Origin: a virus
Length of the DNA: 42,699 nucleotides
Strand: one strand, 5' to 3'
Virus record (IMG/VR): IMGVR_UViG_3300027712_000062
Span: 1 to 42,699 of that record
The translations under genes and the position numbers were made by a program. This document shows, piece by piece, positions 2,212 to 41,971 of this stretch (positions are counted from its first letter, which is position 1; each line of letters starts with the position of its first letter). The notes beneath the pieces were generated by a model. The model did no database searches. It saw only the letters and a list, made by a program, of their open reading frames with translations, and had not been told where the DNA came from.

Positions 2212-2865
2212 TTATAATCTACCCATAAAATGTTTTACAACCTCAGTTGCAAGTCTATTTACTCTATTTGTTGCTGATTGGGGAGTAATTTCTTTGTTTT
2301 TTTGTTCTAAATCGGTAATTGCCGCTGAAATCATAATATTTCTAACCATTTCTGACATTTCTAAGATTTTTTCGATTAATTCTTTGTGATTTTCGTCTAA
2401 ATCTCGTTGCATTCGGTATAATTCAAAGTATTTTGTGAGATATTCTTTTGTTTGACCCAAAAATTGACCTGATTGGAACATATTCACCACACCAAGTTGT
2501 CTAATCAGTTCTAAATACTCAACAATATACTTTAAATCGGACTTTTTAAACAATCTTGCCCACTCAACGTGAGAAATTAGGTCATCTAAGTCAGTAAAAC
2601 GGGCTTCTTGGAGGTTTTTTTGACTAAATTCAGGATCTAACATCCAAGTATCACTCTGTGGGAGTAAAGATAGGGTAGATATGACCTTTTCATCGTCATC
2701 ATACCACTCCATATTATACATATAGTCAAATTCTGACCCAAAACTAGGTTGTTGACCTATTCCTTTAACCTTTCCTTTAGTTCCTGTATCAACATCTTCA
2801 CCTGGCATGTATATTAAAACTATACGATCACCTTCTTTTAGTTTAGGATTCTGTTTTTTACTCAT
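2212..2865 (-). CDS. SH3-like-start protein with helical C-terminus
   Basis: A 217-residue protein. Residues 8-65 (KLKEGDRIVLIYMPGED, then GTKGKVKGI and a MEWYDDDEKV strand) look like a small SH3-like barrel of the DUF4314 type, a fold in which 'G-D-R-I-V-L' and 'P-G-T-x-G-x-V' are typical. From about residue 90 the chain is helical and charged, with a QEARF stretch that would be an L-Q-E-A head-protease-type site (NLQEA). No N-terminal leader. The start is set by an ATATTTATTAAT box directly before the ATG. Function unknown; a virion protein is possible. Confidence 0.6.
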   Translation of the reverse strand: MSKKQNPKLKEGDRIVLIYMPGEDVDTGTKGKVKGIGQQPSFGSEFDYMYNMEWYDDDEKVISTLSLLPQSDTWMLDPEFSQKNLQEARFTDLDDLISHVEWARLFKKSDLKYIVEYLELIRQLGVVNMFQSGQFLGQTKEYLTKYFELYRMQRDLDENHKELIEKILEMSEMVRNIMISAAITDLEQKNKEITPQSATNRVNRLATEVVKHFMGRL

Positions 2866-2879
2866 ATTAATAAATATTA

Positions 2880-5336
2880 TTATCTAATGATTGTTAGAGA
2901 TCCTGTAAATAATTTTTTTTCGTCGGTTTTTGGAACTCCAAATTGTAAAACCCAACTATATACACCATCTTGACATTTGATTCCGTTATAAGTCCCATCC
3001 CAACTTGATGAAATATCATAAGATTCCCAAATTAATTGTCCCCAACGGTTATATATTGTAAAACGAAAGTCATATGGATCAATTCCTGACGTAAAAACAG
3101 GTTTAAATGTTTGATTATACTCATTATTATCCGGTGTAAATGAATTTGGTATGTAAAATAACTCATTTGGACATAAAGTTAGTGTAACTGTGATCGTTTG
3201 TGGGTTAGAAACACATCCATTGTCCCATCTAACCACATCAAATGAGTAAACCCCATCAGAATCCCAAGTAACATTTACAGTTGGTCCTTGAATTATGTTA
3301 TTAAAGACGTTCCATTCATTATATCCAGCGCTTGGTGACACCGCACCATAGGTAATTGTTAAACTATCACCATCACAGATCTCTAAAAATTGAGTATTTT
3401 CTCCAACAACACCATCAATTACGGTATTTATTGTTGGTCTTGGGTAAACTTGAACGTTTATTGTTGTATCAAACCAACATCCTGATTGATTATAGGTATA
3501 ATTAACCGTATCAATACCAATAAAACCATTATCAGGACAATATTGACCATTCCAAACATTCATACCACTAAAATTACCACCTACTGGAGTCGCATTTAAA
3601 TTAATACAGTTGTCATATTCACAAAATGGCCCAACTTGAGTAATAACAGGAAGGATATTTAACACAAACAAGTTAAAAGTTTGAGGTGAACTTAAACAAC
3701 CCAACTGATTTGAACCAATAACCGATAATGCGTTGTTATAAAGACCCGCATTTACACCAGTGACGTTTAAGTTTATTTGATTTGTCCCTTGACCTGACGT
3801 AATATTTCCAATTGTGGAAGTCCAAGTATAAGTTAAATTGGGAAAAACACTCGAAACGTTGTATAAATTACTTGTGGAGTTATAACAAATGGTGTCTAAA
3901 CCTGTAATTGGGTTAATTGTAACCATAGGGGGATCAACAAGTGTGGTATTTTGTGTTGCAGGGCAGTTATATAAGTCATAAACCGTTACAGAATAATTTC
4001 CTGACAATAAATTTGTTGCTGTTTGTGTAGTTTGTCCATTATTCCACAAAAAAGTGTAAGGAGGAACACCACTTGTAGGGTTAACAATAGCACTTCCATT
4101 ATTATAACCGAAACAAGTTGGGTTTGTAGGTGTAATTGTAGGTTGTTGTAAAGGTGGGGGATTGTTTAAAGTGACTGATGAACTATAAGTACATCCTGCT
4201 GCGTCAATTAAATTATATGTATATGTACCAGCACATTGATTAACCAAATTAAAACCAACACCCTGACCATTCCAAGAAATATTAGTTACTCCTGTTCCAC
4301 CATTTGGTGTAATATTAATTGTCCCATCACATCCATTATTACAATGTGGATCTGAAGTTACAACTGTTGGTTGAGGTAATACGGGGGGACCTGGTACAAC
4401 TAAAACAGTATCAGGACCTAAACCTACACCAGCGTTACAAGTAGACCATCCAGCGTTACAAGAAAGATAAACAAGTTGACAAGTGTAGTTTGCTCCTCCC
4501 GGTGGTGGTGTTACCGTTATTGATGGGACATTAGTTGCGATTGGAACTGGATTTCCGACTTGAAACCAAGTTAATGTGGGTAGAACGGCAGGTCCTGATG
4601 GTGTATATCGTCTTGCATCATTAACTGCAGTCCATTGAGTTGAGTTCCGACCCGCCACTGATACTGCTAATGTCCCTGTTGAATTATGTATTCCTTGAAC
4701 TGATGTTCCTAATGCCCATTGAGGACAATTTGGTTTATTTACTAAATAATTTTCAATTATGTTGGTTGACTCATATAATACAATATGAAATGTCCCCTGT
4801 AAGTTAGTACAAGAAAACATAGGAACTCCAATCCAACTAACAGTTAATTTTCTACAAGGAGCCACTCCTGTTGTTTGATACCTTATTTGTCCTCCTACAC
4901 CTGGATTCCAATCTTGCCAAGGCCCCATTATACAGTTTTTAGGAACAACAGCATTTGCGGTTGGGATGGAAACTGATGCAAATGTAAAAGGTTGAACTCC
5001 GTTACCTAACGAAACCCAACCATTAGATCCAATTCTAAATTGAGTATACGTTTGACCATAAAAACAAAAGGTAAATCCAATATTAAATATTCCCGACTGA
5101 GAATCATCAGTTAATTGAACCAAAGTTCCATTATTAGTTTGATTAACAAATGGAATTTGACTCACATTATAGTTTGTAGTTTGATTTGGGTTTGATCCGT
5201 TACCACACTGACTTAAATCTGCTGTTAATGTTGTCGAGTTAACACCACACGGTAAAATTTGATTAGGTCCTAAATAAGGACAATATTGTGAATACACAAA
5301 AAGGGGAAATAAAAATAAGAGTAATAAATGTTTCAT
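2880..5336 (-). CDS. Secreted surface protein with SprB-like repeats and T9SS type B sorting domain
   Basis: The 818-residue protein starts with a signal peptide (MKHLLLLFLFPLFVYSQ). Residues about 80-245 form a beta-rich domain (IGFTFCFYGQTYTQF, then SNGWVSLGNG). Two SprB-like repeats cover about 325-395 and 400-470 (NPTCFGYNNGSAIVNPTSG, then YTFLWNNGQTT, then LLSGNYSVTVYD). Immunoglobulin-like segments follow. The last 95 residues from about 724 (YIPNSFTPDNN, FTIYNRWGQLIWES, WDGTYNGIKCQDGVYSW, LFTGSLTIIR) are a gliding-motility-type C-terminal domain that directs export by the host type IX secretion system. Hence it should be secreted and surface-attached on the host. Finding it among leader-tagged genes, with its own TATTTATA-type box, is unusual. 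Confidence 0.88.
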   Translation of the reverse strand: MKHLLLLFLFPLFVYSQYCPYLGPNQILPCGVNSTTLTADLSQCGNGSNPNQTTNYNVSQIPFVNQTNNGTLVQLTDDSQSGIFNIGFTFCFYGQTYTQFRIGSNGWVSLGNGVQPFTFASVSIPTANAVVPKNCIMGPWQDWNPGVGGQIRYQTTGVAPCRKLTVSWIGVPMFSCTNLQGTFHIVLYESTNIIENYLVNKPNCPQWALGTSVQGIHNSTGTLAVSVAGRNSTQWTAVNDARRYTPSGPAVLPTLTWFQVGNPVPIATNVPSITVTPPPGGANYTCQLVYLSCNAGWSTCNAGVGLGPDTVLVVPGPPVLPQPTVVTSDPHCNNGCDGTINITPNGGTGVTNISWNGQGVGFNLVNQCAGTYTYNLIDAAGCTYSSSVTLNNPPPLQQPTITPTNPTCFGYNNGSAIVNPTSGVPPYTFLWNNGQTTQTATNLLSGNYSVTVYDLYNCPATQNTTLVDPPMVTINPITGLDTICYNSTSNLYNVSSVFPNLTYTWTSTIGNITSGQGTNQINLNVTGVNAGLYNNALSVIGSNQLGCLSSPQTFNLFVLNILPVITQVGPFCEYDNCINLNATPVGGNFSGMNVWNGQYCPDNGFIGIDTVNYTYNQSGCWFDTTINVQVYPRPTINTVIDGVVGENTQFLEICDGDSLTITYGAVSPSAGYNEWNVFNNIIQGPTVNVTWDSDGVYSFDVVRWDNGCVSNPQTITVTLTLCPNELFYIPNSFTPDNNEYNQTFKPVFTSGIDPYDFRFTIYNRWGQLIWESYDISSSWDGTYNGIKCQDGVYSWVLQFGVPKTDEKKLFTGSLTIIR

Positions 5337-5399
5337 AATATAAATACGAATTTAATTTGGTTAAGTTGTTATTAAATAAAAATTGAAAGTTTAAGTTTG

Positions 5400-5661: not shown

Positions 5662-6087
5662 ATGAAAGTAGTTGACGTAAACAGTACCGTGACTGTAAAT
5701 TACACGGGAAAATTAGAAGATGGAACTGTTTTTGATTCATCATTAAATCCTGGTCGTGAGCCATTATCTGCGACTTTGGGTCAAGGATCTTTGATTCCAG
5801 GTTTTGAAAAAGGATTAATTGGTATGACCGAAGGTGAATCCAAAATTATTAACATCCCTTTTTCTGATGCTTATGGTGAAATTAAACCTGAACTAATCGC
5901 CGAAGTACCAAGAGATAGAGCTCCTGAAGAAATTAAAGAAGGACAAATGCTTCAAACGATGACAAATCAAGGTCCTTTGAATGTTACTGTTAAAGAAATT
6001 AAAGAAGAAACTTTAATCATTGACGGTAATCATCCATTGGCTGGTAAAGATTTGACATTTGATTTGGAATTAATTTCTGTTGAATAA
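5662..6087 (+). CDS. FKBP-type peptidyl-prolyl isomerase, SlyD-like
   Basis: A 141-residue FKBP protein. VTVNYTGKLEDGTVFDSS at residues 10-27 and LGQGSLIPGFEKGLIGMTEGE at about 39-59 are the FKBP signature, followed by the insert-in-flap region (YGEIKPELIAEVPRDRAP) typical of SlyD and the closing HPLAGKDLTFDLELISV strand. It should catalyse prolyl cis-trans isomerisation and act as a folding chaperone in the cytoplasm. It lacks the His-rich metal-binding tail of E. coli SlyD. A folding helper of this type is more usual in bacteria, so it was probably captured from a host. Length and motifs are complete. Confidence 0.93.
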   Translation: MKVVDVNSTVTVNYTGKLEDGTVFDSSLNPGREPLSATLGQGSLIPGFEKGLIGMTEGESKIINIPFSDAYGEIKPELIAEVPRDRAPEEIKEGQMLQTMTNQGPLNVTVKEIKEETLIIDGNHPLAGKDLTFDLELISVE

Positions 6088-6528: not shown

Positions 6529-7083
6529 TTATCCTCTTTTTAAATCTCTGTCAACCATTCCTTTAAGAGCCAAAACTAAACCTGAAATTACCATACCAAC
6601 ACTAATTGGTCCTGAATAATGACCTCCAGCCATTTGAACGATGTCGTGTAATTTTACCATTAGTTCACCAGCATCAGTATAACCCATTGCTTGACTAATA
6701 GCTCCAATTGCACCTGCTCCCATCATACCTAAACCTGCCCCCATCATTGCTTTTTCTCTAAAACCTTTTTTTCTGTCATCAATATTTTCAGACAAATACA
6801 TTTCAGTTAATTTTTCTGCTTGAGAGTTATCAACAAGATCTTCTAATTCTTCAATATCTTCGTCGTCCATTCTTCTTAATTTTCTTTTAAAGAAATCAGA
6901 TATTACGTTTACAACATCAGACTTTTCCATTTGAGTGTAATCACTTTCATTATCCATTTCATCATTATATGACATATCCATATCATCGTTAGATGACATA
7001 TTCATTTCTTCTTGAGTTTCAATCACAATTCTTCTAATTAATGACTGAAATTCTGATTCTGTTAGTCTAATTTTTCTTCCCAT
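6529..7083 (-). CDS. Leader-tagged protein with two glycine-rich hydrophobic segments
   Basis: The 184-residue protein has a class-A leader (RLTESEFQSLIRRIVIE, ending Glu22), then a Met/Asp/Asn-rich acidic spacer, a charged helical region (FFKRKLRRMDDEDIEELEDL), and two hydrophobic segments: a Gly/Ala-rich one at about 112-133 (AMMGAGLGMMGAGAIGAIS) and a second at about 157-174. An LSE site (97-99) lies just before the first. Glycine-zipper segments of this type can insert in membranes. If the leader loads it into the capsid, it could help DNA delivery across the host membrane; that is inference. The ATG follows an ATTTATAAATA box. Confidence 0.68.
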   Translation of the reverse strand: MGRKIRLTESEFQSLIRRIVIETQEEMNMSSNDDMDMSYNDEMDNESDYTQMEKSDVVNVISDFFKRKLRRMDDEDIEELEDLVDNSQAEKLTEMYLSENIDDRKKGFREKAMMGAGLGMMGAGAIGAISQAMGYTDAGELMVKLHDIVQMAGGHYSGPISVGMVISGLVLALKGMVDRDLKRG

Positions 7084-7639: not shown

Positions 7640-8395
7640 TTATTTCATAATTTTATCACTCATAGGAATTTTTAATCCTTTTGTTTTACCCCAATCATAT
7701 ATCATTTTTTTTAATTCTTTAACATATTTTTCAGGTATCTGAGCACATACTCTACTTTTTCTTATGTCATAAATAGGTGTAGGTTCAGGGATTATACCAC
7801 CATCAAAATGTTTTTTATCAAATAATTTTGGAGATGTTCTCGTATTATCCCCAATGTCCCCTTTTGGATCTACAAACATAGAACCTTGACCAGAAATATC
7901 TATTGTTATGTTTTGATTTTCAGCTCTATCTGAATCCGCAACAGATGCTTTTCCTGTAACAAATTTTATGTTATTTAACCCTAAAGACTTAAGATATTTA
8001 ATTAAATTATCTCTTCGTTTTTGAGCTAGTTGAGTGTTTTTTTCTTTTGCTTGTGAAGATCCTGCAGAAAAATTACCCCAAGATGTGTTTGAAGCACTAC
8101 CATTAATTTTTGCCGTTCCTCCACCTTGATTATTAAAACTTTGTAAATCTGAAACAATTTTTTTAATTTGGGGGGCTGATGTGTTTATTTCGGCCTCACC
8201 TAATTTAAAATTTTCCTTACCATTTGCAGAAAGTTGCATTGGTATGTTTCTACCTTTTTTTCTTTCCCAAGATGCGGTATTTACATTTTGAGCATTTATA
8301 TCTGTTTGTCGAGATAGTGGAATAATTGGTTCTTCCATCAAGTTTCTAACAATTCTATCTAATTGTTTTTCAGTTAAAATTACCTTGTGATTCAT
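7640..8395 (-). CDS. Leader-tagged OmpA-like domain protein
   Basis: The 251-residue protein starts with leader ILTEKQLDRIVRNLMEE (L19-M20-E21). Residues about 62-170 look like an OmpA/MotB C-terminal domain: a FKLGEAEINTSAPQIKKIV start, a central GTAKINGSASNTSWGN strand, and the typical AQKRRDNLIKYLKSLG helix followed by NIKFVTGKAS and a NITIDISG closing strand. Such domains bind peptidoglycan noncovalently. The C-terminus has a CAQIPEKYVKELKKMI helix of unknown role. A peptidoglycan-binding cargo fits delivery at the cell envelope. The start follows GTATTTATAAAA. Domain call is by pattern only. Confidence 0.68.
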   Translation of the reverse strand: MNHKVILTEKQLDRIVRNLMEEPIIPLSRQTDINAQNVNTASWERKKGRNIPMQLSANGKENFKLGEAEINTSAPQIKKIVSDLQSFNNQGGGTAKINGSASNTSWGNFSAGSSQAKEKNTQLAQKRRDNLIKYLKSLGLNNIKFVTGKASVADSDRAENQNITIDISGQGSMFVDPKGDIGDNTRTSPKLFDKKHFDGGIIPEPTPIYDIRKSRVCAQIPEKYVKELKKMIYDWGKTKGLKIPMSDKIMK

Positions 8396-11943: not shown

Positions 11944-12537
11944 TTATTCGTTATAAAGCATTTTAATAATTTCTTTATCAATAGATGAATATTCGGTTGT
12001 TGTTGTCCATCCCTGATAAAAAATACTTTGTGGATACTTCCAAGAATCGTTTAATAAACCAAGAGATTGGGTAAGTTCTTCTCTAAGCAAATGTTTTTGG
12101 GCCTCGATTTCTTTTGTTCGAATAACATCAACATACATAATTCCAGTGTTATTTGGGTATATCTCAAAAAATCCCCAATTGCTTTCCAATAAATTTGAAT
12201 TAACAACATTATATTTTTTTTCAAAATCTTTATAATAACCAAAATATATAAAATAATTTGCCTGATCTTTTGAGTTTACGACTTTGATCTGAATTGGGTC
12301 AATTAAAAGGTTTAATTCATTAACAATTCTATTTAATTCATCTACCAAATAATTTTGATCAGTTTTGTCAACATAGATTTTCATATCTTTTGTCCATTTA
12401 AATGGTTTTTCCATTTTACCTGAAAACTCTGAATTCATTACAACCTCATTATAATAAGATAAAACTTCGGATGAATGTTTTTGTGAAAAAAAATGAAACG
12501 ATAAGAAACAGGATAAAAATAAAATTAAATTTTTCAT
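11944..12537 (-). CDS. Secreted DUF2927-like protein
   Basis: I choose the ATG giving a good signal peptide, MKNLILFLSCFLSFHFFSQ, rather than the more distant start. The 197-residue product then has a domain whose end, HLLREELTQSLGLLNDSWKY followed by PQSIFYQGWTT and a YSSIDKEIIKMLYN helix, matches what I know of DUF2927, a family of exported proteins in which R-E-x-T-Q-x-L-G-L-x-N-D is the conserved core and which may be related to metallopeptidases. It should act in the periplasm or outside the cell. A TATATTTG box 17 bases before the ATG suggests a host-type promoter. No capsid leader. Confidence 0.68.
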   Translation of the reverse strand: MKNLILFLSCFLSFHFFSQKHSSEVLSYYNEVVMNSEFSGKMEKPFKWTKDMKIYVDKTDQNYLVDELNRIVNELNLLIDPIQIKVVNSKDQANYFIYFGYYKDFEKKYNVVNSNLLESNWGFFEIYPNNTGIMYVDVIRTKEIEAQKHLLREELTQSLGLLNDSWKYPQSIFYQGWTTTTEYSSIDKEIIKMLYNE

Positions 12538-12554
12538 AGTTGTAATTATATCTA

Positions 12555-12562
12555 CAAATATA
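12555..12562 (-). promoter_or_regulatory. Host-type -7 box TATATTTG before 12537
   Basis: TATATTTG fits the Bacteroidetes TAnnTTTG box and lies 17 bases before the ATG of the DUF2927-like gene. No clear TTG is seen 17-23 bases upstream. Confidence 0.4.
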
Positions 12563-12576
12563 ATAAATAATTTCAT

Positions 12577-12604
12577 AAAAAACCCCACCTGTAAGAAGAT
12601 GGGG
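12577..12604 (-). terminator. Rho-independent terminator of the 12634 gene
   Basis: On the minus strand: CCCCATCT / AGGTGGGG hairpin then six T, 30 bases after the stop. The same hairpin recurs almost letter for letter at 13977, 15179 and 17974. Confidence 0.88.
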
Positions 12605-12633
12605 TAATTTTTTTTATAAGATCTATTTTAGAT

Positions 12634-13590
12634 TTACTTTCGCATCGGTTGTTTCCCTTTTAAAATGTTTGGTCTTCTTTTTATAAAATTTGATTTTGTT
12701 TTTAATACGTTAGGTTTTATGTGAGAAACGGCATGTCCACCACCATGTCCTACAACACGACCAACTACTTCATGACCAAGTTGGTGTTGAGCATAATGTT
12801 TTCCTGTATGTTTTGTAAAATGTGCAATTTCGTGAGAAATTGCCTCTTCAATTTCATGTAAGAATCCTTTTAATGACCCCAAACCTGATTTCATGGATTC
12901 CAAACCTTTTGTTAAAAAAGGTAATTCTTCAGATAATAACTGAATTCCTTTAGTCATTTGTGAGGATGCTTTACTAAAAAAAGATGATGAACCTTCCATA
13001 ATTTTTGTTAAATACTCAAAAAGTTTTGGGGCTTTTTCCGCCATAGCGGCAATAAATTTTGAAGTTCCTGACTCAGCAAAAGGTGCCATTACAGATTTAA
13101 ATCCTTTTACGAACCTTTGTCCTAATCCAGCTGTTGCCAAACATATGACATCCATGATTAAATTAAACATATTTAACACACCCTTTTTTGCCCATAACCA
13201 AAGATCATAAACTGTATACAGACCCCAAAATACAGGATTTATAATTTCACCAACACCAACAATATCCAAAGCCACCGCAACTGCGGCTCCCTTAATACCT
13301 GAAGCAAACTCCCTAATTGATTCCATGTTTTGTTCAAAAGTTTGTTTTTGTAAAGTTCTTAATGCTGAAATTTCATCTCTTCCAAGTTTTATTCCTTGCA
13401 TTCCAGGAACCAAATACCACCAATCTGATTTTAGTCCCAAATATTTGTCTCCAGCAGAAATTGCTTTGTCTGCTAATTTACCGGCATCATCCCATAAATT
13501 CTCATTTAAATTTTGTTGATCGTTTTCTTCAATTACTCGTTTAACAATTCTCACTAAATCTGACTCTGTAAGTCTAACTACTTTTGACAT
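12634..13590 (-). CDS. Leader-tagged hydrophobic protein with HEIAH motif
   Basis: The 318-residue protein has a class-A leader (RLTESDLVRIVKRVIEE, Glu22) and a second LNE at 28-30. A hydrophobic stretch at about 96-155 (AAVAVALDIVGVGEIINPVF and the following Trp-rich part) resembles the membrane-interacting 'pretoxin' helices of toxin-like proteins. A helical region follows, then HEIAH at 253-257 within a His-rich tail with several HExxH-like and GHGGGH patterns, and a basic C-terminus. HEIAH could be a zinc-metallopeptidase site or simply part of a His-rich tail. It ends in a strong terminator and lies 26 bases after the 13617 gene. Confidence 0.62.
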   Translation of the reverse strand: MSKVVRLTESDLVRIVKRVIEENDQQNLNENLWDDAGKLADKAISAGDKYLGLKSDWWYLVPGMQGIKLGRDEISALRTLQKQTFEQNMESIREFASGIKGAAVAVALDIVGVGEIINPVFWGLYTVYDLWLWAKKGVLNMFNLIMDVICLATAGLGQRFVKGFKSVMAPFAESGTSKFIAAMAEKAPKLFEYLTKIMEGSSSFFSKASSQMTKGIQLLSEELPFLTKGLESMKSGLGSLKGFLHEIEEAISHEIAHFTKHTGKHYAQHQLGHEVVGRVVGHGGGHAVSHIKPNVLKTKSNFIKRRPNILKGKQPMRK

Positions 13591-13616: not shown

Positions 13617-13928
13617 TTAATTTAATGTTACAGGAACTTGTTTGCAATTTGACTCTGTAACCTTACCATTACTACAAGAGCATTTACATTCATATTTCTT
13701 ATTTCCAACATATTTTTGTAAAATGCCAGTATTCATAAATATTTGTTTTAACACATTTCCATCTTTTTTCTCATGAACAATTCGTCTAACCATAGGACCT
13801 CCAATAGTTTTTTCCTTATATCCTGCATTTTTAAGACAAATTGGATCAACAACTTGACTTTCTTCATTAATTACTCGTTCAACAATACGAGCTAAATCAG
13901 ATTCTGTAAGTCTTATAATTTTTTTCAT
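13617..13928 (-). CDS. Leader-tagged Cys-rich small protein
   Basis: The 103-residue protein has the most typical class-A leader, RLTESDLARIVERVINE, ending I20-N21-E22. The body is a small basic domain with six Cys (CLKNAGYKEK near 31, then YECKCSCSNGK and SNCKQ), which could be disulfide-bonded or metal-bound. A 52-base upstream stretch is repeated before the gene at 15544. The gene is followed at 26 bases by the 12634 gene with no terminator, so they are probably co-transcribed. Function unknown. Confidence 0.65.
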   Translation of the reverse strand: MKKIIRLTESDLARIVERVINEESQVVDPICLKNAGYKEKTIGGPMVRRIVHEKKDGNVLKQIFMNTGILQKYVGNKKYECKCSCSNGKVTESNCKQVPVTLN

Positions 13929-15543: not shown

Positions 15544-15861
15544 TTATTTATTTTTTTTCTTATAAGGTTCAAAATCTGGTTCATAATTATATTTTTTCTG
15601 TAAACGACCCATATAATTATTAAACTCTTCGTATTCTTCATCACTTAGATTTTCCATATCTTCATCAAAAGTATTTATAAAATCATAAGCATCACCTTCA
15701 AATTCGTCTTTATCTTTTGCTTGAGTGATAATGTCTTTAAATTCTTTCTTTAATTTAGAAAGAGATAATAAATCATGATCACGGTCTGATTCTGATTCTT
15801 TAATAACTCGTCTAACAATTCTTGCTAAATCCGATTCTGTAAGTCTAACTATTTTTTTCAT
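15544..15861 (-). CDS. Leader-tagged acidic helical protein
   Basis: The 105-residue protein has the class-A leader RLTESDLARIVRRVIKE (I20-K21-E22) followed by SESD, the same E-S junction as inside the polyproteins. The cargo is acidic and helical (LSKLKKEFKDIITQAKDKDE, then MENLSDEEYEEFNNYMGRL) with a Lys-rich end. Its upstream 53 bases duplicate those of the 13617 gene, and the leader codons are similar too, which suggests cassette copying with a different cargo attached. Function unknown. Confidence 0.65.
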   Translation of the reverse strand: MKKIVRLTESDLARIVRRVIKESESDRDHDLLSLSKLKKEFKDIITQAKDKDEFEGDAYDFINTFDEDMENLSDEEYEEFNNYMGRLQKKYNYEPDFEPYKKKNK

Positions 15862-34035: not shown

Positions 34036-35310
34036 GTGATTACAGAAAAACTTTCAAATATTCCCCAATCTAGCGGCTGTTACCTTTTCAAAAACAAAAA
34101 GGATCAGATCATCTATGTTGGTAAATCAAAGTTTCTTCCAAAACGAGTCAAGTCTTACTTTCAAAAAAACCACAAGGATCAGAAGACTTTGTCTTTGGTA
34201 AATGAGATTGTTGATGTTGAGTTTATGACCACTAATGATGAGAGTCAGGCTTTGTTATTGGAAGATGAACTTATCAAATCACACAAACCAAAATACAATA
34301 TTAAAGCAAAAGATGACAGGTCTCGTCGTTGGTTTATTACTTTAAGTTCTGATGAATTTCCAAGACTTTTGGTTTGTAATCCTTCTAACTTTACTGGTGA
34401 AATTCTTTTGGAATGTACAAGTTCCAATTCTTGTTATGAGATTTATGAAATGGTTCACGACATTTTCAATCTAAGATCTTGTTCTTATAACTTAACTGAA
34501 GAAAATATCCAAAATGAAAAGTTCAAAACTTGTTTGGAGTTTCATCTTGGTCGTTGTAATGCCCCTTGTGTTTCCTCGATCATGAAGTTTTCTTACTTGA
34601 AGATTGTAAGTGAAATGAGATATGTATTTTCTTTTCAGTTTGACAAAGTTAAAAGTCGTTTGAAAAAGTTTATGAAGTATCACTCAGACAATATGGAATT
34701 TGAATTGGCTAATAACTTCAAAAATAAAATGGATGTTGTTGATTTGTTGGAAAAAAAACTTGAAACATTTAGAGTTAGAAAGTATTGTGATGTTGCAAGA
34801 TCTTTCAAAGAAGAATTTGGTTTATTGAATGTTCCAACTTTGATTGAAGCATTTGATAACTCTCATACATCTGGTGATTGTCAGGTATCTGCTCTTGTTC
34901 GTTATAAGAATGGTAAAACTGATAAGTCAAACTATCGTAAGTTTAACATCAAAACCGTTGAAGGTCCTGATGATTATGCATCTTTTGATGAGGTGTTAAA
35001 TCGCAGGTTTAAACGACTTTTGAATGAAAAACAAGAGTTACCCTCACTTGTTATTATTGATGGAGGTAAAGGTCAGTTGGGTGTTGCAAAAAAAGTATTT
35101 GAGGATCTTGGTTTATTGAATCGAATTGATTTGATCTCCATTTCAAAAGACGACAAACACAGATCATCAACAATCCACAAGATTGATGGGTCAAGTTATG
35201 ATATCCCAAGAAGTGACTTTGGGTTTTTATTGGCCGAGATTCAAAATGAAGTTCACCGATTTGTTATTACTTTTCACCGTAAAAAACGAAGTAAATCTGT
35301 TATAGGATAA
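34036..35310 (+). CDS. uvrC: UvrC-like excinuclease without the HhH domain
   Basis: The 424-residue protein starts at GTG. Residues 9-90 are the GIY-YIG nuclease (SGCYLFKNKKDQIIYVGKSK); CLEFHLGRCNAPC at 166-178 is the UvrC Cys region; a UVR helix (about 203-241) follows; the RNase H-like nuclease has FDNSHTSG (Asp274), VIIDGGKGQLG (Asp342) and FVITFHRKKRSKS (His414). Both active sites look intact. The HhH2 DNA-binding end of the roughly 600-residue bacterial UvrC is missing. It could repair phage DNA or attack host DNA. It lies alone on the plus strand within minus-strand genes, lacks a leader, and overlaps the 35300 gene end to end by 11 bases. Confidence 0.92.
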   Translation: MITEKLSNIPQSSGCYLFKNKKDQIIYVGKSKFLPKRVKSYFQKNHKDQKTLSLVNEIVDVEFMTTNDESQALLLEDELIKSHKPKYNIKAKDDRSRRWFITLSSDEFPRLLVCNPSNFTGEILLECTSSNSCYEIYEMVHDIFNLRSCSYNLTEENIQNEKFKTCLEFHLGRCNAPCVSSIMKFSYLKIVSEMRYVFSFQFDKVKSRLKKFMKYHSDNMEFELANNFKNKMDVVDLLEKKLETFRVRKYCDVARSFKEEFGLLNVPTLIEAFDNSHTSGDCQVSALVRYKNGKTDKSNYRKFNIKTVEGPDDYASFDEVLNRRFKRLLNEKQELPSLVIIDGGKGQLGVAKKVFEDLGLLNRIDLISISKDDKHRSSTIHKIDGSSYDIPRSDFGFLLAEIQNEVHRFVITFHRKKRSKSVIG

Positions 35311-35962
35311 ATTGATTGTTATAATAGGTTGCAATCCAATCGGCCTTTAATAAAGGTTCTTGATTTAATATTGAGTCAACACTCAAATAATACATTTCAG
35401 TTTCGTAATAAGTCTCTTTATTATACAAATAATTGTCTATGTATTCTTCAACTGCATCCCTAAAATCAGTTTTTTCTCCATTTAAAGTTGCCCATATTGG
35501 TTCTACTTTATTGTCAATATAATAAGTTTCACTATCGTCCCAACCTAATTTCATACCAACAGACTTTATATTAATCACATACTTTTTATACCCAATAAAT
35601 GGGGTTCCTGTTGTAAATTCAATTTTTCTTAAAGAGTCGAAAACTTTTTGTATTTTGTTTTTTGTTTCGTTGTTGAGATAAAATTTAGGTGTATCATTCC
35701 ATGAAACTTCAGGAGTAAATCTATAAGTTACATATTCTCCAAACTCTTGAACTATATACATAATTTCCTCTTCTACAATCGAATAGAAATAAGAAACTTT
35801 ATTTGGATTTTCTATTTTAAATTCAATCGGATAATAAGGTTTATTATGTCTTTTTGATATTATTTCTTCCCCAACTTTAACAGGAATACATTTTAATCCG
35901 TGAAGATCAATTTCATCTCCCGCAAATCTTTTGAATAATTTTAATATTTTTTCTTGATTCAT
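35300..35962 (-). CDS. Untagged hypothetical protein
   Basis: A 220-residue alpha/beta protein starting MNQEKILKLFKRFAGDEIDL, with HNKPYYPIEFKIENPNK, YVTYRFTPEVSW and a YKKYVINIKSVGMKLGWDD strand region. The start has no (L/I)xE leader although the first helix is similar in length. It shares its start base with the stop of the 35962 lysozyme gene, so it is translationally coupled to it. The end overlaps the UvrC gene. Function unknown. Confidence 0.6.
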   Translation of the reverse strand: MNQEKILKLFKRFAGDEIDLHGLKCIPVKVGEEIISKRHNKPYYPIEFKIENPNKVSYFYSIVEEEIMYIVQEFGEYVTYRFTPEVSWNDTPKFYLNNETKNKIQKVFDSLRKIEFTTGTPFIGYKKYVINIKSVGMKLGWDDSETYYIDNKVEPIWATLNGEKTDFRDAVEEYIDNYLYNKETYYETEMYYLSVDSILNQEPLLKADWIATYYNNQFIL

Positions 35963-36870
35963 TACACAAACATTTTATACTCAGTTTCACGTCTTTTTTT
36001 AAGACCTGGATACTTTTTAAATAAATGAGAACTAGTATTTAAGATTTGTTCTCTTGCCCCTTTTAAATCACCCTTTTTTACCATTTGAATAAAATCACTT
36101 CTTCTGAACCCTGATCTTCCCATATTAAAAATTAAAGAAATCATGGCGTCATACATCGACTGAGTTATTGGTATTTTTATTCCATCTATTTCCCAATCAT
36201 TTAGTATTTCATTCAAATGTCCTTCAGCAACTTTGATGTCATCTTTTAATAGTATTTCAGCTTGTTCGTCAGTAATTTTTGTTCTACCTGATCTTATTTT
36301 ATTATATTTTGGTAAAAAATCATAACCTTCATTTTCATTAGGAAATATAGCATGACCATAACCGATTGTATATGCACCATCACCAAGATTATAAGCAGTT
36401 AAAACAGGATTTCCTCCAACACCTTCTTTTTGTTTTAAATGATTAAATAAACCTTCCGACGATTTTCTAATTATTTGAGGTGTTATTTTTTTAATGATTT
36501 CTTTTTCTTTTTTAACCGCCGTTTGAATTGGTGGTTCAAGATAGTTTTGAATTTGACTTATGGAAAATAAACCCAAAAAAGAATAAAGAACATATCTTAA
36601 TATCTTCTTTTTTAGATCACTTGGTAATGATTTTATTTTGTCTTTTAAAACTGAAATATATTCCAAAGCTTGTTCTTTTGTTTTTACCCATTCTTTTGAT
36701 TTGTCAATATCTTTTTCTATATCATCAAAGTTCCACTCCATATCAGGTTCAGTTTTACCATCATCTTCCGTAATTAAAGACAACTTGAAAACAAGATCAT
36801 CAAGAACTTGTTCATAAATTAATTTAGATTGTATTGAGATATATTGATCTTCGGTTATTAAAACTTTCAT
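35962..36870 (-). CDS. Leader-tagged GH24 (T4-type) lysozyme
   Basis: The 302-residue protein starts VLITEDQYISIQSKLIYEQ (leader ending I18-Y19-E20), preceded by an ATATTTATTAAT box. Residues 21-90 are charged helix; 91-112 (RYVLYSFLGLFSISQI) is moderately hydrophobic. The lysozyme domain spans about 137-302: LKQKEGVGGN with Glu149 as the catalytic acid, then AYTIGYGHA (T168, H173), an ITDEQAEILL helix and IFNMG near 250. The catalytic Asp (T4 Asp20) would be near 161-164 (Y-N-L-G-D), with a one-residue shift. It cuts peptidoglycan. The leader suggests packaging in the particle, as in tail- or head-carried lysozymes, not a classic free endolysin; this is inference. Confidence 0.85.
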   Translation of the reverse strand: MKVLITEDQYISIQSKLIYEQVLDDLVFKLSLITEDDGKTEPDMEWNFDDIEKDIDKSKEWVKTKEQALEYISVLKDKIKSLPSDLKKKILRYVLYSFLGLFSISQIQNYLEPPIQTAVKKEKEIIKKITPQIIRKSSEGLFNHLKQKEGVGGNPVLTAYNLGDGAYTIGYGHAIFPNENEGYDFLPKYNKIRSGRTKITDEQAEILLKDDIKVAEGHLNEILNDWEIDGIKIPITQSMYDAMISLIFNMGRSGFRRSDFIQMVKKGDLKGAREQILNTSSHLFKKYPGLKKRRETEYKMFV

Positions 36871-37277: not shown

Positions 37278-38234
37278 TTAACTACGATATATTTTTTTAA
37301 GATTTTCAAGTTTTGCCTTTTTTAATGCACTTTCTAAAACTGAAATTTGTTTAGTGGAAGTTATTTGATTGATTTTATTGTAATCAATTGTTTTTATTTC
37401 TTTTGGTTTTATTTCCTTTGGTCCATTTTGAAAAATAACATTTAACATTTTATGTTTTTTTTCTTTAATGTCCTGTTCTAAACTAATTTCGTCAATCACA
37501 TCTTCGACTATTGGATCTGACAAAGTTTGAGTTTCTTTATCATAAATCTGATAACTTCCAGTTTTTAATTCGTCAAGAATTGGTTGGTTTTTTTTGTTTT
37601 TACTTAAAGTAAAATATCTACCCCTAAGTTGTGAAGCATATCCAGTGTCAGGTCTCATTGTTAAACTTTGAGAATGTAACCTCCTATGAAATAAAATTTC
37701 AGGTGTTAAATAAACTTTTCTTTTAGCACCATATAATCTACCCATAAAGTCTGAATCAGCAGCTACTTTCCACCCTTCAAACCCATTCATCGCCAAAAAT
37801 AACTCTTTTTTTATACCAAAAACTCCCTCACCATATAAATTATGTCCTTCTATGTATTCTCTTTTACCTTTTTTATCTTCAAAATTGACAAATTTTGGTT
37901 TAACACATTCAAAATTATTTAACTTTTCACTAACAATTTTTAATAAGTCTGGCATCATAACATCATCTGAATCAAAGAAAAAAATCTTATCGTATTTAGA
38001 TAACTCAGTTAAAGTATTTTTTATAATATACGGACCATAATTTTCAATAAAATAAAAAAATTTAAAGTTGTCGGGGTAATTTCTTCCCTTCACATAAGTT
38101 AAAGTGCTAACACAACTATCAATACCAAATAAAACTTCATATTCACCATTAAAATTGTTTTTTAAAATTGAATTAATTAACTCATCAAGAAAATCAACAG
38201 AATTGAAGGTGGGTATTATAATACTTAGACTCAT
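37278..38234 (-). CDS. Family 2 glycosyltransferase
   Basis: The 318-residue protein has a GT-A fold start (LSIIIPTFNSVDFLDELINS), a DSDDVMMPDL metal/nucleotide site near residue 93, and AADSDFMGRLYG with a LFHRRLHSQSL acceptor region. Residues beyond 215 are a Lys-rich tail with TIDYNKINQITSTK, shared in part with the 38231 product. It overlaps that gene by ATGA. It should transfer a sugar from a nucleotide donor; acceptor unknown (phage DNA base, host surface glycan or virion glycoprotein). Confidence 0.82.
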   Translation of the reverse strand: MSLSIIIPTFNSVDFLDELINSILKNNFNGEYEVLFGIDSCVSTLTYVKGRNYPDNFKFFYFIENYGPYIIKNTLTELSKYDKIFFFDSDDVMMPDLLKIVSEKLNNFECVKPKFVNFEDKKGKREYIEGHNLYGEGVFGIKKELFLAMNGFEGWKVAADSDFMGRLYGAKRKVYLTPEILFHRRLHSQSLTMRPDTGYASQLRGRYFTLSKNKKNQPILDELKTGSYQIYDKETQTLSDPIVEDVIDEISLEQDIKEKKHKMLNVIFQNGPKEIKPKEIKTIDYNKINQITSTKQISVLESALKKAKLENLKKIYRS

Positions 38235-39148
38235 CTGTTTCTTTTTTTATTTTTAGATCCAATTTTACTTAAAAATTCAGCATTAGTTTTTGGGTTATGT
38301 GATGTGTTTTCGGGTGTTTTAGAAACAATAGATACATGTCTTTGACCATTGAATATTTGATTTACTTTATCATAATTAATTTGTTTTTTTGTATTCTCTA
38401 AAGTTTTTTTGATTTGTATTTCTTCTCGTTCTTGTTTAATTGACCTGATAAAATCATCTTTATTTTCATTTTGTGGATTAAAAATTTCATTGACAATTTT
38501 TGTTTGTATACCATCAGATTTTGATTCAGTATCATAAATTGTTGATTTTTGAGGTTGATACTTTAAAAAATCACCTGAATGAGTTATACAGATCATTTCA
38601 ACATTATTTTCAATACAATATTTCCCAACCCAAATATCCGCCATATTTGGATACAAGAAAAAATCTATTGGTATTTTCATCAAATTGGTATGAAAACACA
38701 TTACACCTGTCCCTCCAAACTGAACTAAAACATTTTTTCTTTGTGGTTTAAGACAATGATAATTTTCAGAATAAGAATTATAATATGAGTTTATCGGAAA
38801 TGATGTGAAGTTTCTACCATGTAGAGTTATAACTCTTTTATTCGAGTATTCTTTACATCTACTTACCATATAATTCACATAATTAGGAGGATATATTAAA
38901 TCATCATCAATTGTTAGATAATAACCATCCGACTCCATTAATTTACCAAATTTTAAAGCATCACCATAACTATTGTCGGAAAAAAATAAATTTATCTTAT
39001 TATCTAATAATTTTTCAGGTATCTCACCTATATGATCATTTAAAAAAATATTAATCTCGTCGCATTGATCATATATTGAATTTATTGTATTTACTAAACT
39101 ACCAACTCTATTATATGATGCAACATTAACTATAGTTTTTTCACTCAT
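38231..39148 (-). CDS. Glycosyltransferase (GT-A, family 2-like)
   Basis: The 305-residue protein opens with KTIVNVASYNRVGSLVNTIN, a GT-A start, and has YLTIDDDLIYPPNYVNYMVS (DDD metal site near residue 77), a TLHGRNFTSFP region and VQFGGTGVMCFHTNL. The tail INYDKVNQIFNGQRHVS resembles that of the 37278 enzyme. Overlaps both neighbours by ATGA. Catalysis of sugar transfer is well supported; the donor and acceptor are unknown. Confidence 0.75.
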   Translation of the reverse strand: MSEKTIVNVASYNRVGSLVNTINSIYDQCDEINIFLNDHIGEIPEKLLDNKINLFFSDNSYGDALKFGKLMESDGYYLTIDDDLIYPPNYVNYMVSRCKEYSNKRVITLHGRNFTSFPINSYYNSYSENYHCLKPQRKNVLVQFGGTGVMCFHTNLMKIPIDFFLYPNMADIWVGKYCIENNVEMICITHSGDFLKYQPQKSTIYDTESKSDGIQTKIVNEIFNPQNENKDDFIRSIKQEREEIQIKKTLENTKKQINYDKVNQIFNGQRHVSIVSKTPENTSHNPKTNAEFLSKIGSKNKKRNR

Positions 39149-39936
39149 AAAGTAATAAGTTTATTTTTTTTTCTTTCGACTTTATTCATTTTAGACTCGT
39201 GATTTCCGTGATTGACTAATGAGTTTTTGACGTGATATAAAAATTTACCACCACTATTTAATCTTTGGGTTATTTGATGTCCCACACCAGAACTTATATT
39301 TGGATTATTAACCCATCTACTTTCATTAATTTTATCAATCCTATAATTAAGTGATTCAAAGAATTTTTTTTCACAAATAAAACATAAATCATTCCATTGT
39401 GTTTGTAAAAACTCACCAAAATCTTTAGGATTACTATACCCCCAATGTGATCTATTGATCCTATCATCTGTGAGTATACTTAAACATATTTTTTTTGTTG
39501 ATGTTATTGAATCGTAAATACGTTTAGATTCATCAAAAAAATCATTAACCAAAGAAACGTCATCAGGAAGATAAATAAAATACTTTGAGTTTACATTTTT
39601 AACAAAGCTAAATGTTGCGTTAAAAGTAACATAATATTTTCTTTTCCCCATATTCGGGAACATTCCAATTTTAACAACATCTCTATTAGTAAAATCCAAT
39701 TTTTCGGTGCTCCCATCATCAAAAATAACATAATATTTTCTTTTCCCCATATTCGGGAACATTCCAATTTTAACAACATCTCTATTAGTAAAATCCAATT
39801 TTTCGGTGCTCCCATCATCAAAAATAACAACAAGAACTTTATAATTTTTTTTATTAGATTCGATATCATCTAATAACTTATATAACATTTCAGATCTATT
39901 ATATGTAGTAATTAAAACACAAAAATCATATTCCAT
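39145..39936 (-). CDS. Glycosyltransferase with a 33-residue internal duplication
   Basis: Start at the ATG giving MEYDFCVLITTYNRSEML (263 residues); a GTG two codons earlier is less likely. GT-A start, VIFDDGSTEKLDF motif, then an exact second copy of 33 residues (about 38-70 and 71-103), then YFIYLPDDVSLVNDFFD (metal site) and SGVGHQITQRLNSGGKFLYH. Without the repeat the enzyme would be 230 residues. The duplicated part contains the DDGS substrate-binding loop and would insert an extra strand-loop unit, so activity may be altered. It lies two bases after the 39939 gene. Confidence 0.75.
   Translation of the reverse strand: MEYDFCVLITTYNRSEMLYKLLDDIESNKKNYKVLVVIFDDGSTEKLDFTNRDVVKIGMFPNMGKRKYYVIFDDGSTEKLDFTNRDVVKIGMFPNMGKRKYYVTFNATFSFVKNVNSKYFIYLPDDVSLVNDFFDESKRIYDSITSTKKICLSILTDDRINRSHWGYSNPKDFGEFLQTQWNDLCFICEKKFFESLNYRIDKINESRWVNNPNISSGVGHQITQRLNSGGKFLYHVKNSLVNHGNHESKMNKVERKKNKLITL
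39627..39829 (-). repeat. Exact 99-bp tandem duplication in a coding region
   Basis: 39627-39725 and 39726-39824 are identical, with five more matching bases; 99 bases is 33 codons, so the frame is kept. The lack of any difference indicates a very recent event or an assembly error. Confidence 0.95.
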
Positions 39937-39938
39937 AA

Positions 39939-40559
39939 TCACCCATTTAATATTGAATTACATTTATTAATAAAATACACATCTTTTTTACCGAATCTTG
40001 ATTCAAAAGCATGATATGTGTTATTACTGTAAGTAGTTCCATAACCAAAACTATGATGTCCATCAAGATCAAAATTAACTATCTCAGCGTGATTTGGTAA
40101 TAATAAATTAACAGGTAATCCTTTTTCTTTTGCAATGTGTGAAAGTTCTCCGCCACAATCAGATCTTTGGGTTGTATTAAATGATGGTCTACCTAAAATA
40201 TTATAAGTTTCAATACTAAAAACTAAAAATGATGGTGCTGCATAAATAAACTTATTGTGTGGTGTTTTTAATTTAGGAGCAACTTGAGCATTTCCAAATA
40301 ATCCAATGTTATTTTTTGCCCAATCAACCGCAAGTGGTATTATTTTTTTATTTAATGGAATTGCATCAATATCAAATAAAACAATAATTTTATCAGGATC
40401 ATTTACATTTTTCAAATAATTATCAACAGCGTCTCCATGTGTTGTCCAGTTATCAACCATTATTTGATTTATTGTAAAACCATATCTTTCAAAAACTCTT
40501 CTTTGTAAATCAACAATTAATGGTTTTATTTTTTTGTCGTAAAATGTTATAATTTCCAT
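39939..40559 (-). CDS. Glycosyltransferase-like protein
   Basis: The 206-residue protein has IIVLFDIDAIPLNKKIIPLA near residues 58-77, where D-x-D is typical of GT-A metal sites, then GLFGNAQVAPKL and FIYAAPSFLVFSIETYN and RSDCGGELSHIA. The layout fits a small nucleotide-sugar-dependent transferase. It lies between a GT9-like and a GT2-like gene with end-to-start spacing of 0 and 2 bases, so it belongs to the same operon. Specificity unknown. Confidence 0.65.
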   Translation of the reverse strand: MEIITFYDKKIKPLIVDLQRRVFERYGFTINQIMVDNWTTHGDAVDNYLKNVNDPDKIIVLFDIDAIPLNKKIIPLAVDWAKNNIGLFGNAQVAPKLKTPHNKFIYAAPSFLVFSIETYNILGRPSFNTTQRSDCGGELSHIAKEKGLPVNLLLPNHAEIVNFDLDGHHSFGYGTTYSNNTYHAFESRFGKKDVYFINKCNSILNG

Positions 40560-41306
40560 CTATCTTAAATATTCTTTTATTTCTTCTAACCAATTTTCTT
40601 TTTGAGAGTATTTTGTGTTTTTACCAGGATTTTGATTTTTAATAAATGGTGTATCTTTCCAAAGAATTAAAATATCTTTATTCATTGCACCTGCACAATG
40701 AGCCAATCCAGTATCGTTTGAAATAATTTTTTTTGCATCCCTTACTAATGATAAAGATTTTCTAATATTACCTATTTCTATCTTATCACATATTTTTTCC
40801 ATCCATGGATTTTGTTTCATATCTGATTCAGATCCTGTAAAATAAATTGGTAAACCACTATTCTCTTTTACTGTGTTGAATATTTCTTCAGGAATTTCTT
40901 TCTTACCATACCATTTGGGTTTTGGGTCATTGTCATTAAGCGATAATCCACCTAAACCATTCAATAATAACAAATAATCTTCATCATTCTTTGGTATCTC
41001 TATTGCGGTATCAACATATGTGTGATATTTTTCAGACCATTTTTCCCCAATCATTAATTCAAATGTATATTGGTAGTCAGGGACATTTAAGTTAATCATT
41101 TTTGATGAGAATGTTGGCGGTCTATGTAATCTACCAATATGATTCATAAAATCACAATCAATAAAACATTCTTTAACGTAAGGTATGGTAAAATAAACAT
41201 CAATTTTTTGACCAATTTTTTCAGATAACTTTTTTATTCCAGGTGTTAACATTATAAAATTACCTAAAGCATATCCTGAATTTTGTTCGATTAAAGGTCT
41301 TTTCAT
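40560..41306 (-). CDS. Glycosyltransferase family 9 (heptosyltransferase-like)
   Basis: I start at the ATG giving MKRPLIEQNSGYALGNFIML; the longer frame adds an AT-rich, unlikely stretch. The 248-residue product has the GT9 N-terminus (GNFIMLTPGIKKLSEKIG), a central LLLNGLGGLSLN strand and IPIYFTGSESDMK-type and IISNDTGLAHCAGAMNKDIL motifs; D-T-G-x-A-H-x-A is the hallmark of GT9 enzymes. GT9 members usually transfer heptose or related sugars to lipopolysaccharide core, so host surface modification is a plausible job. First gene of the minus-strand transferase operon; divergent from 41390. Confidence 0.82.
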   Translation of the reverse strand: MKRPLIEQNSGYALGNFIMLTPGIKKLSEKIGQKIDVYFTIPYVKECFIDCDFMNHIGRLHRPPTFSSKMINLNVPDYQYTFELMIGEKWSEKYHTYVDTAIEIPKNDEDYLLLLNGLGGLSLNDNDPKPKWYGKKEIPEEIFNTVKENSGLPIYFTGSESDMKQNPWMEKICDKIEIGNIRKSLSLVRDAKKIISNDTGLAHCAGAMNKDILILWKDTPFIKNQNPGKNTKYSQKENWLEEIKEYLR

Positions 41307-41389
41307 ATTTTTTATTATAATATATTTCTTTTTTATATATACAAATAAAAAACTTTTTACATTAAAAATAATTAAACTAATATTCATTT

Positions 41390-41971
41390 ATGTTAAATAT
41401 TGTTGCAGTAACTTATAACCATAAAGAATCCTTGAAGTGTTTTATTAATTCAATAAAAAATCAAACTAATAATAATTGGACACTTTTTATTATTCACGAC
41501 GGGTTAAACCATCCTCTTAGAGAAGAATTAACTAATGAAAATTATTTAAACGATAAAGTAATTTTTATTGAACATCCAATAAGAACTCAAAATTATGGTC
41601 ATATACTACGTAAGTGGTCATTGGAAAATTTAGACTTAAATGGTAGAATATTGTTAACTAATGCCGATAATTATTATACACCTAATTTGGTTGAGGAAAT
41701 ATTAAAGTATGATGAAGATTTCATATATTTTAACGTGGTTCATTCTCACCGTAACAAAAATAACCATAATAAGGCTAGTTACGGTTTTATGAACACAAAA
41801 TTAGAACAAAGCAAAATAGATATGGGTTGTGTTGTGGTAAAATCTGAAATAGCAAAAAAAGTAGGTTTTAATTCAACATCATATGAAGCTGATTGGCATT
41901 ATTTTGATGGAATATTAAAAACTAACCCAAGTATTTTAAAAATTGATAAAGTTTTATTTGTCCATAATTAA
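41390..41971 (+). CDS. Family 2 glycosyltransferase
   Basis: The 193-residue protein is a compact GT-A enzyme: LNIVAVTYNHKESLKCFINS, WTLFIIHDGLNHPL, then ILLTNADNYYTPNLVEEILK (DxD-like N-A-D-N site) and SYEADWHYFDGIL. It lacks a C-terminal extension. It stands on the plus strand, divergent from the operon of five transferases, with 83 bases between. It should take part in the same glycan pathway. Confidence 0.78.
   Translation: MLNIVAVTYNHKESLKCFINSIKNQTNNNWTLFIIHDGLNHPLREELTNENYLNDKVIFIEHPIRTQNYGHILRKWSLENLDLNGRILLTNADNYYTPNLVEEILKYDEDFIYFNVVHSHRNKNNHNKASYGFMNTKLEQSKIDMGCVVVKSEIAKKVGFNSTSYEADWHYFDGILKTNPSILKIDKVLFVHN

Follow-up and report, generated by a model that had tools for sequence, protein, structure and literature searches.

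Gene and domain architecture

Positions 2880 to 5336 of the window, the complete stretch of 42,699 bases of a virus record that was analysed here, are occupied by a single open reading frame (ORF) that runs from 5336 to 2880 on the minus strand, starts with ATG and encodes 818 amino acids. The position given for this gene in the first-pass annotation was right, while its strand has been corrected to minus. The gene, its parts and its surroundings are listed below.

2880..5336 (-): gene for an exported protein with a type B sorting domain of the type IX secretion system (T9SS); ORF, Pfam/NCBIfam matches and relatives
5289..5336 (-): signal peptide, residues 1-16 by inspection; mature start predicted at Q-Y-C-P
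4392..5288 (-): Cys-rich conserved N-terminal domain, residues 17-315; conservation and AlphaFold pLDDT of 93
3153..4391 (-): stalk, residues 316-728, with SprB repeats (best 400-436), PKD_6 (472-547) and further Ig-like beta domains
2883..3152 (-): type B T9SS C-terminal sorting domain (CHU_C / TIGR04131), residues 729-818
5339..5346 (-): TATTTATA box, putative promoter element, common upstream of window ORFs
5662..6087 (+): FKBP-type peptidyl-prolyl isomerase, divergent neighbour that adjoins the gene in close relatives too
2212..2865 (-): 217-aa ORF directly downstream, phage context, synteny kept in close relatives
964-1491, 6529-7083, 7640-8395, 13617-13928 and 15544-15861, among others, and 12467-12838 of the tail-lineage contig L028: ORFs with an N-terminal tag

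The gene had been described as encoding a complete T9SS substrate, and the signal peptide-like start, SprB repeats and type B C-terminal domain (CTD) on which that description rested were all recovered. By inspection, the N-terminus MKHLLLLFLFPLFVYSQYCP resembles a Sec signal peptide (MKHLLLLFLFPLFVYSQ), as is expected of type B cargo; equivalent starts occur in 49 of 50 phage homologues, and the Q[YNF]CP mature start is kept in 49/50. At the extreme C-terminus, where type B cargo carries its sorting domain, residues 729-816 match the Pfam family CHU_C ('Type IX secretion signal domain') above cut-off with an E-value of 9e-13, and the NCBIfam model TIGR04131 ('T9SS type B sorting domain') scores 36.2 bits (cut-off 35). 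Pfam matches in the stalk comprise SprB repeats in two stretches (E 7e-12) and PKD_6 (E 1e-9). These domain matches are far beyond chance. The SprB repeats are few, differ in number among orthologues and are absent from two of them (L048 and L051), a pattern that does not bear out SprB-like movement on the gliding tracks of the host. Cysteine makes up 3.4% of the mature protein and 0.8% of the other window ORFs, as would be expected if folding takes place outside the cytoplasm.

The N-terminal domain is the best conserved part of the protein, with a mean pairwise identity of 77% as compared with 63% for the CTD. It matched no Pfam family above cut-off and no PDB sequence, and the whole protein had no match in PHROG. 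AlphaFold predicted the domain confidently as an all-beta fold (pLDDT 93, pTM 0.88), while the full-length model was poor (pTM 0.31). A fold search with the domain model gave no PDB match at E <= 0.001 and three matches at this threshold in BFVD, the best being A0A6J5P7T5 with a TM-score of 0.51. When dN/dS was computed domain by domain on the 25 closest pairs, values were 0.055-0.173 for the N-terminal domain, 0.075-0.313 for the stalk and 0.044-0.233 for the CTD. These ratios point clearly to purifying selection on all domains, and its action on the CTD suggests that sorting matters to the phage.

Promoter-like box and N-terminal tags

The first-pass annotation had also noted a box at the start of the gene. 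TATTTATA does lie on the coding strand, two bases before the ATG, and its 21 copies in the window exceed the 9.6 expected, a number reached in none of 100 shuffles. The core TATTTAT was found within 45 nt upstream of 23/59 ORFs on the coding strand and of 5/59 on the opposite strand, and it also precedes some head-gene ORFs of another of the phage records (L207 in G002); it may be a late promoter element of these phages. The exact box precedes only 7 of 26 orthologues, so that it is weak as proof of co-regulation.

The gene had further been said to be flanked by tagged genes. Its direct neighbours, the 217-aa ORF and the FKBP-like isomerase, carry no obvious tag, and the nearest tagged ORFs of the window begin at 964 and 6529. 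A tag of the type MKKIVRLTESDLARIVRRVIKE, which ends in [I/L/V]xE, is common to many window ORFs. A head maturation protease (phrog_207) is encoded in G002. It is a guess that the tag represents a T4-like signal for capsid targeting and cleavage.

Phage context

A search for homologues on other phage contigs, proposed as a check when the gene was first described, was productive: a direct scan of viral contigs returned 55 loci, mostly full length and 58-78% identical, and a profile scan with the N-terminal domain placed relatives on at least 199 viral contigs. While no capsid or terminase gene was found in the window itself, among 18 large records (17 long contigs plus the window) a Gp23-type (T4-type) capsid gene exceeded the cut-off in 13 and a terminase in 14, and all 18 contained the CTD. 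The gene thus occurs on the same contigs as capsid and terminase genes, and in one lineage a tail module surrounds it, as would be required of phage-borne T9SS cargo. Its neighbours in the window, namely the FKBP gene, the 217-aa ORF and the ORFs at 1871, 1521, 964 and 322, are found in the same order in six relatives (L002, L004, L006, L009, L012, L013). Elsewhere, the window encodes a DUF2927 protein with a signal peptide-like start (11944-12588), a UvrC-like nuclease (34036-35310), an endolysin-like ORF with a tag-like N-terminus (35962-36870) and a glycosyltransferase-like gene cluster (37278-41971).

The terminases of these records fall into groups A (G001, G002, G003, G005, G007, G015), B (G008, G011, G014) and C (G010). 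Across groups, identity is 24-31% for the terminases and 64-76% for the N-terminal domains. Within group A, the N-terminal domain often diverges more than the terminase (78% versus 89% identity for G001/G003), so that the similarity across groups does not reflect slow evolution. Terminase and N-domain distances are correlated (Mantel r 0.58, p 0.007); despite this correlation, vertical descent alone was rejected, since it does not account for the values seen across lineages. From these distances, transfer of the gene between phage lineages is very probable. In the phage collection, the N-terminal domain was found in no named isolate and only in LR745206, a metagenomic phage of 634,780 bp, while LR756502 and the fecal fragment MT839536 have CTD-like sequence. 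The closest cultured relatives include the Flavobacterium phages vB_FspM_immuto (terminase 27%, capsid 40%). By eye, LR745206 also encodes elongation-factor-G-like and glutamyl-tRNA-synthetase-like ORFs (L145, 12196-14151 and 5514-6371), and a GltX-like ORF is present in G009 (L209, 2-1117).

Probable origin from Bacteroidota chromosomes

The N-terminal domain is also encoded at 80 bacterial loci detected by tblastn, nearly all of them in Bacteroidota metagenome-assembled genomes (MAGs), with identity of up to 63%. These copies are embedded among ordinary chromosomal genes, and the sole match to the window neighbours among the 80 loci is one FKBP gene. Chromosomal homologues such as L065-L076 share the N-terminal domain and CHU_C CTD with the phage protein, and one of them (L066, 817 amino acids) is of nearly equal length; they differ in their separate clade, their chromosomal context and their stalk domains (PKD_4 in L066 rather than SprB/PKD_6). 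One homologue (L069) lies on a contig titled Candidatus Competibacteraceae, in an assembly that has PorP_SprF genes; this contig probably comes from a Bacteroidota MAG that was binned wrongly.

Two trees, one of 115 and one of 114 sequences, both quick searches with midpoint rooting, placed every viral row in one clade with SH-aLRT support of 99. The first tree used the best 80 of 199 viral hits, picked by the phage profile, and the second included viral sequences retrieved by a bacterial query, and so largely meets the concern over biased sampling in the first. Sampling bias as the source of the single viral clade was rejected, since the clade persisted when the viral scan was repeated with a bacterial member. 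The simplest reading of the trees, and not a proof, is a single capture from a Bacteroidota host.

The existence of homologues on Bacteroidota chromosomes could suggest that the gene reached the window by chimeric assembly or host contamination, and the first-pass annotation would have given up a phage origin had the region been joined to a host chromosome. Such a junction was not observed: the phage flanks are repeated in contigs assembled independently, the gene is linked to capsid, terminase and tail genes, the viral copies cluster in a separate clade and the bacterial copies sit among chromosomal genes. Chimera or contamination was rejected on the basis of synteny, the viral clade and the linkage to capsid and terminase genes; it is highly improbable and, given the conserved flanks and this linkage, excluded in practice. 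The proposal that the substrate is phage-encoded is therefore strongly supported, with some 200 viral contigs behind it.

Insertion site in the tail lineage

In one lineage, the gene lies within the tail module, in the order sheath, tube, the gene, a 123-aa tagged gene, baseplate hub and an 801-aa gene, as read from 71 loci, some of which overlap. When the tube protein served as an independent query (best 80 of 599 relatives, 69 of which had enough downstream sequence), the gene was present at 7/69 tube loci and absent from 62/69, where the hub gene mostly comes next. A clean empty site was found in L276, whose tube is 97% identical to that of L028: the former reads tube, terminator, TATTTATA, tag gene, while the latter reads tube, terminator, the gene, AATATTTATAATAGT, tag gene. 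Being an extra gene between structural genes that close relatives lack, the gene has the properties of a moron, and by this comparison it is best regarded as an accessory insertion in the tail lineage. The empty sites in close relatives speak against an essential part of the virion. A different signal-peptide cassette occupies the same tube-adjacent site in L281.

The first two ORFs of this cassette in L281 lie at the tail-tube site, and cassettes of this second secreted type were also seen at L208/L211/L217/L219 (G004, G016), L209/L215 (G009) and L210/L216 (G010). They are runs of adjacent ORFs that all have signal peptides of their own: a Gly-rich ALK_LTK_GRD-like ORF (in L281, another ORF, of 205 amino acids), a PKD_6 ORF of 188 amino acids and a CHU_C ORF of 189/190 amino acids. 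The upstream pieces end in GPI[NS]HN or TPI[SQ]HN. The arrangement resembles the chain of the window protein split at its domain borders into separately exported genes.

Predicted export and surface display

Type B proteins are held at the cell surface by PorP-like barrels (PMC9143113). The PorP_SprF profile matched none of the 18 phage records, while in the positive control, Bacteroidota assemblies carrying chromosomal homologues (putative hosts), it matched 10/10, with 5-20 matches each. Thus, a phage with this gene would rely on its host for both secretion and anchoring. The conserved signal peptide, purifying selection on the CTD and the lack of a phage PorP/SprF all indicate that the host T9SS and a host outer-membrane partner would be used. 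The type A sorting domain Por_Secre_tail exceeded the cut-off in 5/18 phage records, in other large proteins (L212 in G002, L213 in G005, L214 in G007, and also G006 and G013), one of which has a cohesin domain; with type A cargo beside type B, the T9SS cargo of these phages is not limited to a single protein.

The sequence features make it probable that the protein is displayed on the host surface by way of the host T9SS, and within the proposed course of events display has the firmest support. Expression would take place in the phage cycle, probably late and from the gene's own short promoter, after which the signal peptide would direct Sec export and, to judge from sequence and Cys content, the protein would fold with disulphide bonds outside the cytoplasm. 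In a step modelled on known type B proteins, the CTD would then direct it into the host T9SS for passage of the outer membrane, and a PorP/SprF-like barrel would hold it, the barrel being assigned to the host because the phages encode none. The N-terminal domain would be presented outward on the SprB/PKD/Ig-like stalk, and the surface of the infected cell would be changed to the benefit of the phage.

Possible consequences for the infected cell

The first-pass annotation had suggested superinfection exclusion, host aggregation or glycan masking as possible benefits of display. Superinfection exclusion, through receptor masking or displacement of SprB/RemA-type adhesins, is ranked as the most likely effect, ahead of adhesion or aggregation, and is put forward tentatively. 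Cellulophaga baltica and related flavobacteria become resistant to phages through mutations in gliding or T9SS genes, and SprB and RemA may be phage receptors (PMC13288928); for F. columnare, a location of the phage receptors within the gliding machinery has been suggested (PMC7345892). Such a link between gliding and resistance would fit exclusion or receptor displacement. The alternative that the protein is an adhesin or fitness factor, by which infected cells stick together, to particles or to polysaccharide and progeny are placed near new hosts, agrees with an architecture typical of Bacteroidota adhesin-like surface proteins; with no fold match for the N-terminal domain to set beside this, it is possible and rather doubtful.

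Two further explanations place the benefit elsewhere. A virion-associated adhesin, which is part of the tail or binds it after export and aids adsorption to hosts or surfaces, would account for the co-directional position between tail-tube and baseplate-hub genes in tail-lineage contigs, but close relatives lack the gene at that very site, it is not beside tail genes in the window's own lineage, and a selected signal peptide and T9SS CTD make no sense for assembly in the cytoplasm; this role is unlikely. Slightly less probable still is a T9SS decoy, in which the type B CTD would compete for the translocon or for PorP/SprF partners and block display of host adhesins while the N-terminal domain matters little. 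Since the phages have no PorP/SprF of their own, the protein would have to compete for the host copies, and SprB and RemA are possible phage receptors (PMC13288928); however, a decoy needs just a signal peptide and CTD, and it is the N-terminal domain that is best conserved.

Display with exclusion or receptor displacement leads to a broader proposal, likewise held short of even confidence: that this phage-specific family of T9SS-displayed proteins may be a cassette exchanged among deeply divergent large Bacteroidota phages, remodelling the infected-cell surface by means of PorP/SprF-type anchors of the host. Should display take place as predicted, Bacteroidota phages exploit secretion and gliding machinery that belongs to the phylum itself and whose loss renders flavobacteria resistant to phages. 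With the conserved N-terminal domain there is one candidate for expression and testing in a laboratory Flavobacterium, for which no phage need be isolated first.

Relation to known systems

Alteration of the host envelope by phages is known, with well-studied examples from other phyla. The moron genes lom and bor of lambda, a temperate phage of Enterobacteriaceae, have products in the host envelope; they resemble the present gene as accessory genes amid structural genes with a host-envelope product, which is predicted here, and differ in that they are not homologous, belong to a temperate Enterobacteriaceae phage and have no T9SS. The closer parallel in architecture is with SprB and the type B proteins of Flavobacterium johnsoniae, which share SprB repeats, the type B CTD and probably the same route of export and anchoring (PMC9143113). 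SprB itself is a 669-kDa gliding adhesin with sprF adjacent (PMC9143113), whereas the phage protein is about one-tenth of this size rather than a giant many-repeat protein, has SprB repeats in two stretches that some orthologues lack, and has no cognate sprF beside its gene in any of the 18 phage records.

T9SS cargo of phages is itself not new. Proteins with BACON domains and T9SS sorting domains are encoded near head genes of Bacteroidota phages from the gut (PMC6949934); they are like the window protein in their sorting domains and differ in the BACON domains, and spread, insertion site and origin were not demonstrated there. Cryophage likewise encodes proteins with T9SS sorting domains that are thought to exploit the host T9SS, but these are type A CTDs on variable enzymes and other proteins (an endoglucanase, GH39 and a PA14 protein) that vary between variants of one phage (PMC7468147), whereas the window protein has a type B CTD and belongs to one conserved family found across several deep lineages. 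In the open-access papers searched, no type B cargo was found that forms one phage clade, spans deep lineages and occupies a defined site. While phage T9SS cargo as such was already known, its type B form, present in several deep phage lineages, appears to be new.
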